From: Natribacillus halophilus
GTDB lineage: Bacteria; Bacillota; Bacilli; Bacillales; Marinococcaceae
Direction of reading: 5' to 3'
Length of the DNA: 64,000 bases
NCBI RefSeq assembly: GCF_900100185.1
Contig: NZ_FNEN01000007.1
Location: forward strand, 91,939-155,938
Shown: in pieces, positions 1 to 44,943 of the stretch
Layout of the letters: each line of letters starts with the position of its first letter
Position numbering within the stretch: the stretch's first letter is position 1
The notes under the pieces: model-generated
What the model was told of the DNA's origin: nothing
Databases searched by the model: none
The model's input: only the letters and a program-made list of their open reading frames with translations
Program-made: the position numbers and the translations under genes

Positions 1-75
1 GAAACGCTCCGCGGGGTATGATTTAGCCGAAGTCATCCCCCAAATGGCAAACGAAACGCTCCGTGAGGTATGATC
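1..75. repeat. 52-bp tandem repeat array A (partial)
   Basis: The motif GAAACGCTCCG followed by GGTATGAT occurs at positions 1 and 53, a 52-bp period. Between the copies lies an inverted repeat: GGGGTATGA (about 14-22) against TCATCCCCC (33-41), with an 11-nt loop. The unit is recognisably the same family as the array at 9556-9945: both have TCATCCCCCAAA followed by CTCCG/CCCCG and GAGGTAT/AAGGTAY. The array probably starts outside the window. No coding potential is seen. Confidence 0.7.
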
Positions 76-9536: not shown

Positions 9537-9555
9537 GTGTTTCAGGGATGGGCGT

Positions 9556-9945
9556 AATCATCCCCCAAAGGCTAGATCAGGTGCCCCGAAAGGTACGGGA
9601 AGTCCGAAATCATCCCCCGGGGGTTAGATAGGGGACCTCGAAAGGTATGGAAAGCCGGAAATCATACCCCAAAGGCTAGATCAGGTGCCCCGAAAGGTAC
9701 GGGAAGTCTGAAATCATCCCCCAAAAGCTAGATCGGGCGCCCCGAAAGGTACGGGAAGTCCGAAATCATCCCCCAAAAGTTAGATCGGGTGCCCCGAGAG
9801 GTACGGGAAGTCTGAAATCATCCCCCAAAAGTTAGAACGGGTGCCCCGAGAGGTATGGAAAGCCGGAAATCATACCTCAGGAGTTATATAGGGCACCCCG
9901 AGAGGTATAAAAATCCCGAAATCATACCCCGGGTTTGGATAACTC
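9556..9945. repeat. 52-bp tandem repeat array B (about 7.5 units)
   Basis: The motif AATCAT recurs at 9556, 9608, 9660, 9712, 9764, 9816, 9868 and 9920, exactly every 52 bp. A unit reads AATCATCCCCCAAAAGCTAG, then a variable GATCGGGTGCCCCG, then AAAGGTACGGGAAGTCCG. Each junction forms a short hairpin: GGTATGG or GGTACGG on one side and CATACC or CATCCC on the other, around a GAAAGCCGGAAAT-like loop; several units keep the GGTATG/CATACC match intact. No reading frame is conserved. It fills the yrzQ-yrrI gap. Confidence 0.9.
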
Positions 9946-18543: not shown

Positions 18544-18693
18544 CGATGGCGTCATCCGCGGAAAGTGAAGCCATAATCCGTCTAATTCTAGCATCCAATG
18601 ACATCACCAAAGGAAATAGCATCTATAGTAAGGGTATCCATGACTAATTATTCGGACTTTGACGAAAACGAAACTGCGGTTTTAACCTCACCC

Positions 18694-18722
18694 TTGACAT
18701 CACAGCCCAAATTCGATATAAA
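18694..18722 (+). promoter_or_regulatory. Sigma-A promoter of the alaS T-box transcript
   Basis: Perfect -35 TTGACA (18694-18699), 17-nt spacer, -10 TATAAA (18717-18722). Transcription would start near 18729 and give a roughly 240-nt T-box leader. Confidence 0.8.
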
Positions 18723-18728
18723 AGAAGA

Positions 18729-18970
18729 AATCAAAGAGACGATCATACGATGATGGAACGAGTAGATCCGGCCCAGTTTTACAGAAAAGGATCCCGCGGC
18801 TGAGAGGGTCCGAACATGGATGGATTGAACGCTATTCCGGAGTGCAGCTAAACCCTGCCGTACCGCCGCGTTAAGGCTATGAAGCGAGCCATTGGCCAGG
18901 CTAATGGTTAACAAGGGTGGTACCGCGAGCAAGCAACCTCGTCCCTTTCCGGGGGCGGGGTTTTTCATGC
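18729..18970 (+). promoter_or_regulatory. T-box leader riboswitch (alanine)
   Basis: The diagnostic T-box sequence AAGGGTGGTACCGCG is at 18913-18927, followed by the terminator arm CCTCGTCCC and GGGGGCGGGG with a U-run (to about 18966). Upstream lies a long stem I; GAACGCTA around 18827-18834 offers GCU (18831-18833) as the alanine specifier codon. Uncharged tRNA-Ala would stabilise the antiterminator and let alaS be transcribed. Confidence 0.93.
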
Positions 18971-30291: not shown

Positions 30292-31176
30292 ATGACAAAT
30301 ACGATGCCAGTGCTCGTACGGGAAGAACCCGCCCAGCATTTGGACCATGACGGCCTTTGGAAAAAAGTGATCACCGATCTGTTCGAACCATTCATGCTAT
30401 TTTTTGCTCCCGATCTTTACGAACAACTGGATTGGAGCAAGCAACCGGACTCACTGGAACAGGAACTGCAAGACGGTAAAGAACAGTGGATTCTTGTTCA
30501 TGTTGAGGTCCAACGCGACAAAGAAGATGATTTTGCGGAACGAATGTTTCAATATTTTTACCGTATTTTCGACAAGTACAACCAAAAGATCTATGCCATT
30601 GCTCTCCTCACCGATGCTGACCGGTCGTTCCATCCCACATCCTACGACTACCATTTCCACGGAACGAATCTAACCTACGCCTACAACACCTATAAGATTT
30701 GGCATGAGGATGAAGAAACGCTACTGCATTCAAGCAACCCTTTTGCCCTCGTCGTATTAGCCGGTAAATACGCGCTAAAAAGCGAAAAAAACGCCGATGA
30801 CCGCTATCAATTCAAACGCCGGCTGTTCGATTTGATCATCCGTCACAAGAACTACTCAGAAGCGTATACCTATTCGTTGTTTTCGTTTGTTGATTATTTA
30901 TTGACCGTGCCGGAGGAAATGAACCAAAAGCTGCAAGAAGAGTTCGAATCCAGAGCCGAAGAGGAGGTGATCCTCATGCATAATACTTCATTTCCCGAGC
31001 CCCCGACATTAAAGCCCATATTTGATAAGTTGAGACGGGAAGAAGAGGAAGTAAAAAGACAAAATACAAAAGAAATTGCTGAAGCAATGTTACAGGAGGG
31101 ACTTCCGATTGCAACAGTTATTAAAGTGACAGGTCTTAATGAAGATGAGCTAGATGAAATTCAGAATCAGAATTAA
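30292..31176 (+). CDS. Rpn-family nuclease/putative transposase (PD-(D/E)XK)
   Basis: A 294-residue protein of the recombination-promoting nuclease (Rpn, YhgA-like) family. The N-terminal half starts KKVITDLFEPFMLFFAPDLY and has the active-site strand VHVEVQRDKEDDFAERMFQY typical of the Rpn PD-(D/E)XK domain. The C-terminal ~66 residues form a charged helix and a small IAEAMLQEGLPIATVIKVTG segment. Rpn proteins are toxic DNases implicated in phage defence. A perfect ribosome site (GAGGAGGTGA) precedes an in-frame internal ATG at 30976, which would produce the C-terminal 66 residues separately. Start at ATG 30292; an ATG at 30190 overlaps the promoter. Confidence 0.85.
   Translation: MTNTMPVLVREEPAQHLDHDGLWKKVITDLFEPFMLFFAPDLYEQLDWSKQPDSLEQELQDGKEQWILVHVEVQRDKEDDFAERMFQYFYRIFDKYNQKIYAIALLTDADRSFHPTSYDYHFHGTNLTYAYNTYKIWHEDEETLLHSSNPFALVVLAGKYALKSEKNADDRYQFKRRLFDLIIRHKNYSEAYTYSLFSFVDYLLTVPEEMNQKLQEEFESRAEEEVILMHNTSFPEPPTLKPIFDKLRREEEEVKRQNTKEIAEAMLQEGLPIATVIKVTGLNEDELDEIQNQN
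30976..31176 (+). CDS. Intragenic C-terminal product of the Rpn gene (RpnS-like, probable antitoxin)
   Basis: In frame with the Rpn gene, ATG 30976 lies 5 nt after GAGGAGGTGA, a near-consensus ribosome site unusual inside a coding region. The product would be 66 residues starting MHNTSFPEPPTLKPIF. Published work on E. coli rpn genes showed that such an internally started small protein (RpnS) blocks toxicity of the full-length nuclease (RpnL). The same function here is inference; what is seen is the site, the frame and a separate duplicated copy with the same 66-residue length downstream. Confidence 0.6.
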   Translation: MHNTSFPEPPTLKPIFDKLRREEEEVKRQNTKEIAEAMLQEGLPIATVIKVTGLNEDELDEIQNQN

Positions 31177-31262
31177 GGAAAGTTAAAAGCAGGTTTGGAA
31201 ATTGCAGCCAGCCTGCTTCTTTTCACTCCTGAAAACCCATAGCCGAAGAGGAGGTGAGCCTC

Positions 31263-31463
31263 ATGTATAATACTTCATTTCCCGACCCACCGACGTTCAA
31301 ACCTGTATTTGAAAAGCTGAGAAGGGAAGAAGAGGAAATAAAAAGACAAAATACAAAAGAAATTGCTGAAGCAATGTTACAGGAAGGACTTCCGATTGCA
31401 ACAGTTATTAAAGTGACAGGTCTTAATGAAGATGAGCTAGATGAAATTCAGCATCAGAATTAA
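31263..31463 (+). CDS. Free-standing copy of the Rpn C-terminal domain (RpnS-like)
   Basis: A 66-residue ORF, MYNTSFPDPPTFKPVFEKLR then a charged helix and the same IAEAMLQEGLPIATVIKVTG core as the Rpn C-terminus. It has its own ribosome site GAGGAGGTGAGCCTC before the ATG; a GTG at 31254 is less likely. Differences from the Rpn copy are mostly conservative (H/Y, E/D, I/V, D/E, V/I, N/H) and there is no stop or frameshift, suggesting it is maintained as a gene, not debris. A second antitoxin dose is a plausible role. Confidence 0.6.
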   Translation: MYNTSFPDPPTFKPVFEKLRREEEEIKRQNTKEIAEAMLQEGLPIATVIKVTGLNEDELDEIQHQN

Positions 31464-31521
31464 AGAAAGTTAAAAGCAGGTTTGGAAATTGCAGCCAGCC
31501 CGCTCAATTGTTTTCGGCCAT

Positions 31522-31564: not shown

Positions 31565-32659
31565 TTATCCGCCCAATGCGCCATGCGTCTCCGGGCCTGG
31601 AATCCCATCCACGCCGATGCCGGCGTCTTGCTGGAACCTGCGCACCGCTCCGGACGTTTCGGAACCAAAAATACCGTCAACCCCGAATTGCGGCAAGCTG
31701 TATCCGAGATCAACCAAGCGTTGTTGCAACTCTTCGACGTGATCGCCTTGATCGCCAGCGCTGATGATCGCTCCATCCCAGTGTTGAAAGCGAAAAGCCA
31801 TGTCAACATCGCCTTCTAATGCGCCATGCGTCTCCGGCCCCGGAATGCCATCCACGCCGATGCCGGCGTCTTGCTGAAACCTTCGCACCGCTCCGGACGT
31901 TTCGGAACCAAAAATACCGTCAATTCCGAACTGCGGCAGACTGTAACCGAGGTTAACCAAGCGTTCCTGTACTTCTTCGACGTGATCACCTTGATCGCCA
32001 TCGCCGATGATCGCTCCGTTCCAGTGTTGGAACGTAAAGCCATCATCACCGTTATCGTCGTTTCCGTTCTCATCATCGCCATCACCGTCACCATTATCAA
32101 TCGGCGTTAAACCTAAATAGTCGGCAACGGCTTCAGCATGTGCCGCGGCTACGGCTGAAATAAAAGCCGGATCTTGCAACAACTCGGCGTCTGCGGCATG
32201 ATCGATAAACAAATTTTCCGTCAAAATCGCGGTCATTTGCGTCTCCCTTAAGACATGGAAGTTGGCCGATTGCTGGCCGCGGTCGGGGATAGAAGCATCG
32301 TATCCCAGCATCTCATTTAAAATCTGCGGATGCATATCAGCCTGGAGATTATTCGCTCCCGTCGGGATGCTATTATGAATGTACGTCTCAAATCCTCGCG
32401 CGTTCCCATTAAAGGCATTGGCATGGATCGATATAAACACGTCAGCCCCCCAGTTGTTCGCGTTATCTGTCCGCGCTTGTAGGGAAACAGACGTATCATC
32501 GGTCCGGGACATTCGCCGATACATGCCCTCGTAATTTTGACGCAGATAAACGCTCATCTGGTAGCCAATATCGAGCACGATATCTTTCTCGGCCAATCCA
32601 TTCCCGGTCGCTCCCGTGTCATTACCGCCATGTCCCGGGTCAATATAGATTCTTTGCAA
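31565..32659 (-). CDS. N-acetylmuramoyl-L-alanine amidase, CwlC-like, with two peptidoglycan-binding domains
   Basis: A 364-residue Amidase_3 enzyme: catalytic domain about residues 1-185 with IDPGHGG (zinc His), E28 in the GLAEKD region, SIHANA (zinc His) and the catalytic Glu in TAILTENLFID; a D/G/N-rich acidic linker; then two PG_binding_1 domains about 81 residues apart (GIDGIFGSETSGAVRRFQ and GVDGIFGSETSGAVRRFQ). There is no signal peptide, as in CwlC, which lyses the mother cell late in sporulation. The TTG at 32659 gives MQRIYIDPGHGG and is 10 nt from AAAGGGG; a TTG three codons upstream is too close to the site. Confidence 0.88.
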   Translation of the reverse strand: MQRIYIDPGHGGNDTGATGNGLAEKDIVLDIGYQMSVYLRQNYEGMYRRMSRTDDTSVSLQARTDNANNWGADVFISIHANAFNGNARGFETYIHNSIPTGANNLQADMHPQILNEMLGYDASIPDRGQQSANFHVLRETQMTAILTENLFIDHAADAELLQDPAFISAVAAAHAEAVADYLGLTPIDNGDGDGDDENGNDDNGDDGFTFQHWNGAIIGDGDQGDHVEEVQERLVNLGYSLPQFGIDGIFGSETSGAVRRFQQDAGIGVDGIPGPETHGALEGDVDMAFRFQHWDGAIISAGDQGDHVEELQQRLVDLGYSLPQFGVDGIFGSETSGAVRRFQQDAGIGVDGIPGPETHGALGG

Positions 32660-37930: not shown

Positions 37931-38093
37931 TGGGGGATAGCGCTCCAACACACCCTAAAATGAGAGATTGAGTAAAATGGGGTGCGCTGGTGGTTGCCGT
38001 GCCCCTCAAAATAAAAAAATAATCAAAGTGGGGTGCGCTGGTGACCCACCGCACCCCCCAAAATGGAAAAATGACCAAAATGGGGTGCGCTGC
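37931..38093. repeat. 51/52-bp tandem hairpin array C
   Basis: TGGGGTGCGCTG begins at 37978, 38029 and 38081 (periods 51 and 52 bp). Each unit has an inverted repeat GGGGTGCG...CGCACCCC with a roughly 12-nt loop (perfect in 38030-38057), then an AT-rich spacer AAAATAAAAAAATAATCAAA or AAAATGGAAAAATGACCAAA. A degenerate further unit starts at 37931. The period matches arrays A, B and D although the sequence is different. It lies between two minus-strand genes. Confidence 0.85.
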
Positions 38094-43592: not shown

Positions 43593-43613
43593 CATGTGCC
43601 CTAAAGCACTCCG

Positions 43614-43798
43614 GAGGGATCAGGAAAGTGAAGTAATCCCTCAGCCGGAGGTTGAGCTACTACGAGAGGAACAAGAGAAGCAAAGTAATCCCTCATCCGG
43701 AGATCGAGAGACTGCGAGAGGAACAAGAAGAGCGAAGTAATCCCTCAAACGCCAGTGGATCCGCCTCGAGAGGGATAAGAAAAGCGAAGCGTTCTGGA
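43614..43798. repeat. 52-bp tandem hairpin array D
   Basis: The motif GTAATCCCTCA begins at 43633, 43685 and 43737, exactly 52 bp apart. Each unit is a 29-nt segment GAGGGAT-(15 nt purine-rich)-ATCCCTC (perfect 7-bp arms in the first unit, degenerate in the next two), then a 23-nt spacer (AGCCGGAGGTTGAGC..., ATCCGGAGATCGAGA..., AAACGCCAGTGGATC...). It ends with GAGGGATAAGAAAAGCGAAG (from about 43770). It lies between the TAXI terminator and a promoter. Confidence 0.85.
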
Positions 43799-43872
43799 GA
43801 AATCCCCATGACCGGACACCTGTAATTAATATTTGAAATTTGACGAAACAGTGCCCTAAGAGGAAGAAAAAA

Positions 43873-43941: not shown

Positions 43942-44943
43942 GTGAAAGAAAATGAAGCGATTGCCTGGCATCCGTCATTTGCGGCGGCCTTGCAATTGGG
44001 ATTGCAAGCTTATTCTGACGAACTGGAGCTTGAAACCGAATATGAGCTCACGAGTGAGCCTCTGAAAGTCGATGTCCTTATTTTAAAAGACAGGCAAACG
44101 ATCATCCATAAAAATATTGGCAGAATCTTTCGTCATTATAACATTGTCGAGTATAAATCACCCAGAGATTATGTCTCGATCGATGACTTCTATACAGTGA
44201 AACTTCCATCAGAGGTGGTTTTCCTCTGATGGTTAGTTGAACCAATCGGGGTGTTAGTCGCCCGTTATCTCCCGCTTACGGGGTTGCAGCGGGAGATTTA
44301 CGGGCGCTTATCACCGGGACAAAACCATAGCGTACGTGTATCTGTATAAAAACACCGGCGACAAAGGCACAGATACGATAGATATCCGTGATATGACGCT
44401 AACTTTGGTCAGTTTGTATAAGCCGGTGAAACTTCTGGATCATCTACAGAAGCGGGAAAAACATGTCTATTCAGAGCATGAAGGGGTATACTACATCGAA
44501 GGGATGGATGTACCTATCCAGCTTCTCATTCAAGATGATCTCCCCACCGAGGAAAACGAGTACCTGACGTTATTGACGAATGAGTTACAGGAAAAAGAAC
44601 AACTTCAACGTGCCCTGATGGACTATTTTCAAGACAGTAAGAAGGATCTGTACTTGCTTATGTTTCATGCGGTTTTTCATGCCAATCCCGAATTATTTAC
44701 GGAGGTGATCCAAACGATGCAAAAACTGGATCTTGACCCGGAGGCCCAAAAAAAGATCGACGAGGTCGTCAAAGAGTTTGAATGGGACAAAAAGGGTTAC
44801 AAGAAGGATTTGAAAAAGGGAAGGAAGAAGGAAAAGAAGAAGTAGCCAAAAAGCTGCTCGCAAAAGGAATTTCCTTGGAAGATATTGCGGAAGCAACGGG
44901 ATTACCCATTGATACGATCAAGAAATTGACCCATGACGATTAG
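43942..44943 (+). pseudogene. PD-(D/E)XK nuclease-like gene disrupted by an insertion and a frameshift
   Basis: Three pieces make one protein. Piece 1 (43942-44199) starts MKENEAIAWHPSFAAALQLG and has the nuclease motif D in LKVDVLILKD and E-x-K in IVEYKSP, ending at SIDDFYTV. A 127-bp element (44200-44326) follows. Piece 2 resumes in the same sense as IAYVYLYKNTGDKG (44327 onward). At about 44806 one G appears missing (AAGAAGGATTT where AAGAAGGGATTT would keep the frame); after the shift the frame reads GFEKGKEEGKEEVAKKLLAK and the usual DIAEATGLPIDTIKKL tail, ending at 44941-44943. The in-frame stop and two lesions show it is not functional as full length. A 170-codon remnant (44336-44845) remains open. 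Confidence 0.85.
44200..44326. mobile_element. 127-bp non-autonomous hairpin insertion element
   Basis: The element interrupts the PD-(D/E)XK gene between the codons for V of DFYTV and I of IAYVYLY. It holds two strong hairpins: CCATCAGAGG/CCTCTGATGG (44207-44233, 7-nt loop), and CGCCCGT..ATCTCCCGC / GCGGGAGAT..ACGGGCG (about 44259-44307). No target-site duplication is visible. Small size, subterminal hairpins and no duplication fit a derivative of IS200/IS605-type elements, which move as single strands; no transposase or TnpB is present. The boundaries are inferred from protein continuity. Confidence 0.7.

Follow-up and report, generated by a model that had tools for sequence, protein, structure and literature searches.

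The 52-base repeats that recur in the 64,000-nt stretch of the Natribacillus halophilus genome analysed here (the window), and elsewhere in this bacterium and in some of its relatives, look like the countable modules that make up the middle of small non-coding mobile elements. The array under study (hereafter the window array; Table 1) is, in our judgement, probably the module block of one such element, a small non-autonomous transposon built like a BOX element, with an end, a variable number of tandem 52-bp modules and a second end. The model comes from two elements of this genome, M1 and M3, which have conserved ends, border repeats of about 8–12 bp and module numbers differing by whole 52-bp steps among otherwise very similar copies; judged by alignment, the window array possesses one end homologous to theirs. 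Such an element would be moved by a transposase acting in trans, while slippage or unequal crossing-over would add and remove modules, and we take the modules to be the filler, or the amplifiable core, of the elements that carry them.

The repetition in the window array is regular to the base. Copies of GTAATCCCTCA begin at 43633, 43685 and 43737, and three overlapping 72-nt copies, at 43614, 43666 and 43718, follow one another by steps of 52 and 52, in register. TRF gives the array a period of 52 and a score of 171, and in the lag scan its segment scores 60; a shuffle control (400-kb sample of genome G009, 100-bp blocks) produced no segment scoring at least 22 at any period from 20 to 130. 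The exact period noted by the first-pass annotation was in this way reproduced. Its description of the unit as GAGGGAT, 15 nt and ATCCCTC needs correcting, as the GAGGGAT arm is restricted to the first unit and the partial fourth; units 2 and 3 carry GAGGAAC instead, which pairs with ATCCCTC at five of seven positions. The gene preceding the array encodes an NMT1_3 (PF16868) protein, and the open reading frame downstream on the same strand, at 44336–44842, is without a Pfam match.

The window array had also been described as the third of three unlike sequences sharing one geometry, of which the shared geometry stands and the number does not. A profile grown from one unit gathered 59 in-register units of 52 columns from the window and ten loci of this genome, array A/B contributing seven, and the A/B consensus agrees with a consensus of the main family, that of the window array, at 29 of 52 positions, a level reached by none of 5700 shuffled comparisons. 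Because their units are homologous and their consensus sequences match to this extent, array A/B and the window array form one family, and the window holds two types, not three. Array C, on the other hand, was linked to none of the other arrays when 76 period-52 consensus sequences were clustered, and unlike sequences do share the 52-bp geometry.

Table 1. Arrays, element borders and comparison loci (positions refer to the window unless a genome or locus is named).
Feature	Position	Strand	Basis or remark
Weak single match to main-family unit	7..58	+	Profile score 26.7
Array A/B, ~7.5 units (52 bp each); belongs, in diverged form, to the window-array family	9545..9933	+	TRF, lag scan, profile, consensus clustering
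Array C, ~2–3 units; different sequence, period 52 (lag scan: 52 and 103)	37949..38092	+	TRF, lag scan, clustering
Left copy of 9-bp direct repeat GTGCCCTAA, candidate target duplication	43596..43604	.	Exact; two copies in window
Candidate mobile element comprising the array and a right end (left end unrecognised)	43605..43853	+	Array, end homology, bracket
Window array: three 52-bp units plus partial fourth	43608..43789	+	Sequence, TRF, lag scan, unit profile
Right end, homologous to L086, M3 and M1 ends	43798..43853	-	Reverse complement agrees with L086 end at 44/56 positions
Right copy of GTGCCCTAA	43851..43859	.	Shares its first three bases with the terminal GTG of the element
Full-length Y1 transposase	G000:C39:12278-12634 (L019)		3.1-kb locus free of tandem segments
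Tandem arrays with periods 43, 40–41, 41 and 124, genomes G046 and G038	L214:9737-10158; L223:2737-3533, 18612-18799; L227:5774-5910; L222:9790-10052		

The borders of the window array give the candidate element its outline. The right end scores above all 500 shuffles when compared with the ends of locus L086 and of M3, and reaches p 0.002 against the M1 end, in tests made after the likeness had been spotted by eye. The left flank has no match to the four M1/M3 ends at p<0.02, and the left end of this copy may have been lost; with that end unrecognised, terminal inverted repeats were not found in the window array. The two copies of GTGCCCTAA are the only exact ones in the window and bracket positions 43605–43850; similar brackets occur at 37 of 1711 other window places tested, or about 2%. 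Neither flank of arrays A/B and C shows an end of M1/M3 type (four ends tested, p<0.02).

In M1 and M3, two conserved end modules flank a tandem module block. M1 was seen as common sequence beyond the array at loci L010, L012, L015 and L017; its right end lies at seven places in this genome, and six two-ended copies measure 299, 403, 413, 309, 361 and 204 bp between search anchors. With three terminal bases added, these lengths equal 6x52-10, 8x52-10, 8x52, 6x52, 7x52 and 4x52-1, and the copies differ by multiples of 52 save for one 10-bp class difference and one base. M3 is found at 16 places in this genome. Its outer 60 bases have a mean likeness of 97% on the right and 91% on the left (ten N-free copies), and in the ten N-free copies with both ends the gap between the end blocks is exactly 15+52n in seven and within 2 bp of such a value in three. 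Modules within M3 are spaced by 52 in 29 of 30 cases, the remaining spacing being 103 (nine copies with at least two recognised modules), and the recognised modules per copy range from 1 to 11 (ten copies). Exact direct repeats of 9–12 bp border 10 of 14 M3 copies, with one partial case, one without and two unjudgeable, and M1 copies are likewise bordered by direct repeats. Both elements have short, imperfect terminal inverted repeats with a GTCAAAGT core, and the M3-type ends read CACGGTTCCGTCAAAGTCC and CAAGGTAAAGTCAAAGT.

Ends and modules also occur in other combinations. At L086, an end of the M1/M3 type adjoins a different module type, and a third element, M2, found in genus g10, has unrelated CTAGTGCA-type ends around a block of F8 modules, which number four in most of the copies aligned; the lengths of M2 are not near multiples of 52. 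The idea that the whole element measures a multiple of 52 fits the elements only in part: it holds exactly or within 2 bp for six of ten N-free M3 copies and four of six M1 copies (with the three terminal bases added) and does not hold for M2. Recent amplification inside each M3 copy was discarded: unit likeness is 0.893 within copies and 0.880 between them, and 289 of 2000 permutations reach this. Module number differs by whole units between copies of M3, between copies of M1 and at an orthologous site shared by G016 and G022, where the former has three F2 units and the latter about eight.

Most arrays are without a proved carrier and may be old remnants or users of other ends. In a 444-kb sample of G000, which holds 16 arrays or about one 52-bp array per 28 kb, the end motif lies within 350 bp of just three of them; its matches number four near arrays and 24 elsewhere, which, on these small counts, is 4.9 times the background rate. 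The 150-bp flanks of 78 arrays show only a small excess of repetition, direct (9.38 vs 8.81) and inverted (9.41 vs 9.03). Transposase searches with PF01610 and PF01797 found no autonomous partner. An ISL3 partner, a guess prompted by the end motif, was dropped, PF01610 being absent from G000 and G005, with one match in G009 and pieces in G016; Y1_Tnp (PF01797) has one full-length and one partial match in this genome, which may be of IS200 or of RAYT type.

The step of 52 is both frequent and constant. In lag scans over periods 25–80, it was the top period in 464 kb of this genome (19 segments), 400 kb of G009 (37) and 400 kb of G016 (12), with 14 of 20 G009 and seven of 20 G016 stretches picked around matches to the main family, one G000 stretch (L090) containing a known array and the window picked for the finding itself; this selection concerned the main family, and the other sequence types were unselected. 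When periods of 20–130 were admitted and each place was counted once, period 52 was found at 15 of 31 places in this genome, 33 of 47 in G009 and 11 of 19 in G016. Among arrays chosen for periods of 51–53, 229 of 240 unit spacings in five genomes are 52, seven are 51 and four are 53 (each unit counted once), and in a sixth genome, G046, all 30 of 30 are 53; unit lengths do not vary freely. G046 and G038 further contain arrays of 40–43 bp, and G046 also arrays of 20 and 124 bp, periods near whole helical turns, but other genomes have periods of 56, 58, 76 and 89 too; two of the arrays with periods of 40–43 or 124 that Table 1 lists for these genomes sit inside open frames. In the window, TRF also reports two adjacent tandem duplications of 287 and 243 bp, at 30950–31504 and 31575–32043.

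The arrays occur genome-wide here and recur in relatives. The main family was found in five of 61 genomes, namely this one and all four sampled from genus g10, and 52-bp arrays of unlike sequence are present in G005, from another genus of the same taxonomic family, and in G038 and G046, from two other families. No arrays of 51–53 bp were seen in 566 kb from 23 further genomes, a weak absence given the thin sampling, mostly 20–40 kb per genome and in four contigs of G002 and G008 just 1–2 kb. A contig pattern search prescribed the 52-bp spacing, and its three matches are no independent evidence. Such a pattern also underlies the arrays of other sequence, with steps of 51–53 bp, that were noticed in Bacillus sp. 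T33-2 (L151) and Bacillus sp. CHD6a (L153). Collections of plasmids and phages gave no match. By crude ORF calls, 55 arrays are intergenic, 18 in convergent, 29 in codirectional and eight in divergent gaps, where the gaps total 119, 398 and 129, respectively; seven arrays lie within ORFs that reach 90 codons or more, and six of these ORFs are shorter than 620 bp.

At a second orthologous site, G016 and G022 carry an array where G026 and G009 have none. At L172 (G022; contig 857180–857720, compared with L107:9700-10450), an array lies between two close genes, with 44 bp of host sequence directly duplicated on either side of it; G026 and G009 have no array here. The two copies of the duplication are identical at 38 of 44 positions (score 34, shuffled maximum 13), and through it both neighbouring genes retain their overlapping ends.

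The odd point is that arrays of quite unlike sequence hold the same 52-base step. One account is descent, neutral or selfish, by which a single ancestral 52-bp array, spread by transposition or recombination, gave rise to most of the arrays, the period being inherited and its length unconstrained; we regard this as a serious contender, if somewhat short of an even chance. We compared the 76 consensus sequences from three genomes in all rotations and on both strands, with a threshold of 29/52, the loosest that no shuffled pair reached among 5700. At this threshold single linkage yields 12 clusters, with 63 of the 76 arrays in one, and the stricter 31/52 yields 16, of sizes 41, 15, 5, 2 and 2 and eleven singletons. 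The chaining at 29/52 hints at distant common descent, and it counts against convergence on 52. The step of 53 in G046 shows, moreover, that the length can drift. Descent has more difficulty with representatives F1, F2, F7 and F8, which, compared directly, agree at 20–26 of 52 positions, about what chance gives (shuffled mean 21.4), and yet all keep 52, and with the spacings of 51 and 53, which occur in the five genomes but have hardly spread.

Constraint on the length would be another way to account for the constant step. As a weaker part of our explanation, and a guess, 52 bp may be held as five helical turns of about 10.4 bp, such that any number of modules leaves both ends of the element in the same rotational phase. 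In its wider form, a five-turn physical ruler would govern a class of intergenic tandem arrays of the Bacillales. Only modules of whole turns would hold two ends far apart in phase, or do the same for a polymerised protein, and arrays from several genera, with sequences and transposon ends that differ, would for this reason settle at 51–53 bp, a smaller class lying near 41 bp. We consider this generalisation unlikely, and the chaining at 29/52 lowers its probability. Phased binding sites offer a related and, to us, quite improbable reading: a nucleoid or other protein would read imperfect palindromes five turns apart, and the arrays would be kept for chromosome folding or gene control. The period near whole turns agrees with it, as do the consensus units, which in 31 of 97 arrays are more palindromic than any of 20 shuffles; the unlike sequences, however, speak against one sequence-specific protein, and the presence, absence and unit number of the arrays shift between related species.

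That the arrays are transcribed as structured RNA, a row of hairpins, is very unlikely. The arms are complementary at 74–92% of cells, and in L119, a single array of ten units, compensatory changes equal the best of 300 shuffles. The arms of F8, F2 and F7, however, pair slightly worse than shuffled partners and those of F1 fall within the shuffled range, so the arm covariation that the first-pass annotation had proposed to examine was not seen in four of five families and was borderline in L119. Six stretches fold like their shuffles (z -0.94 to 1.00), and the sole Rfam match at gathering score in the window is a 6S RNA gene at positions 211–390, away from the arrays. By eye, palindrome arms often differ at one A/C position (GACC/GCCC; for example, at L079, L062 and L106), possibly a fixed mismatch. 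A CRISPR array, which the spacing of repeat and spacer resembles, can be dismissed, as copies are related over the entire 52-nt unit, the "spacer" too, in line with the first reading of the window, and the unit recurs at many places in the genome.

We therefore return to the mobile element with countable modules and its place among known systems. BOX elements are best known from streptococci; their boxB module is 45 nt long, where the module here is 52 bp, and their variable middle is to our knowledge unexplained. In Streptococcus pneumoniae and S. suis, BOX elements are described as having boxA and boxC on either side of tandem boxB modules in variable number, together with target duplications and inverted repeats at the termini; S. 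suis has forms in which the ends differ (A/C or E/F) but enclose the same boxB (PMC3049150). M1 and M3 share this architecture of a small interspersed intergenic element with two ends and a variable tandem middle, a likeness at the level of description, and the first-pass annotation's remark that it knew of no described element family with this property is incomplete at this level (PMC3049150). Differences from BOX are that one length is common here to a number of unlike module sequences and end types, that the host belongs to another order of bacteria and that no transposase partner was found. We regard the element as BOX-like in architecture, apparently a variant of a known plan, and claim no membership of the pneumococcal family. 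REP/BIME palindromes, which are moved by RAYT, are similarly intergenic and clustered; they differ from the arrays here in the latter's fixed 52-bp step, and the sole full-length Y1 transposase is without a tandem segment in its locus, leaving a RAYT link not supported. The terminal-only PATEs of Haloquadratum are likewise short, non-autonomous and palindromic, with a length of 52 bp, but these archaeal elements occur singly, as remnants of core deletion, and not as tandem arrays (PMC3119063); the common 52 bp is a coincidence. Among the papers listed by literature searches, none had a title or opening abstract lines describing intergenic arrays of 52 bp.

Overall, our analyses place a BOX-like architecture in another order of bacteria, with a step length that outlives the sequence of the modules, and in arrays whose spacing mimics that of CRISPR. 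The question of the constant step is thereby made testable: the module length may matter, be it to transposition or to a protein that binds the modules, or it may be just history.
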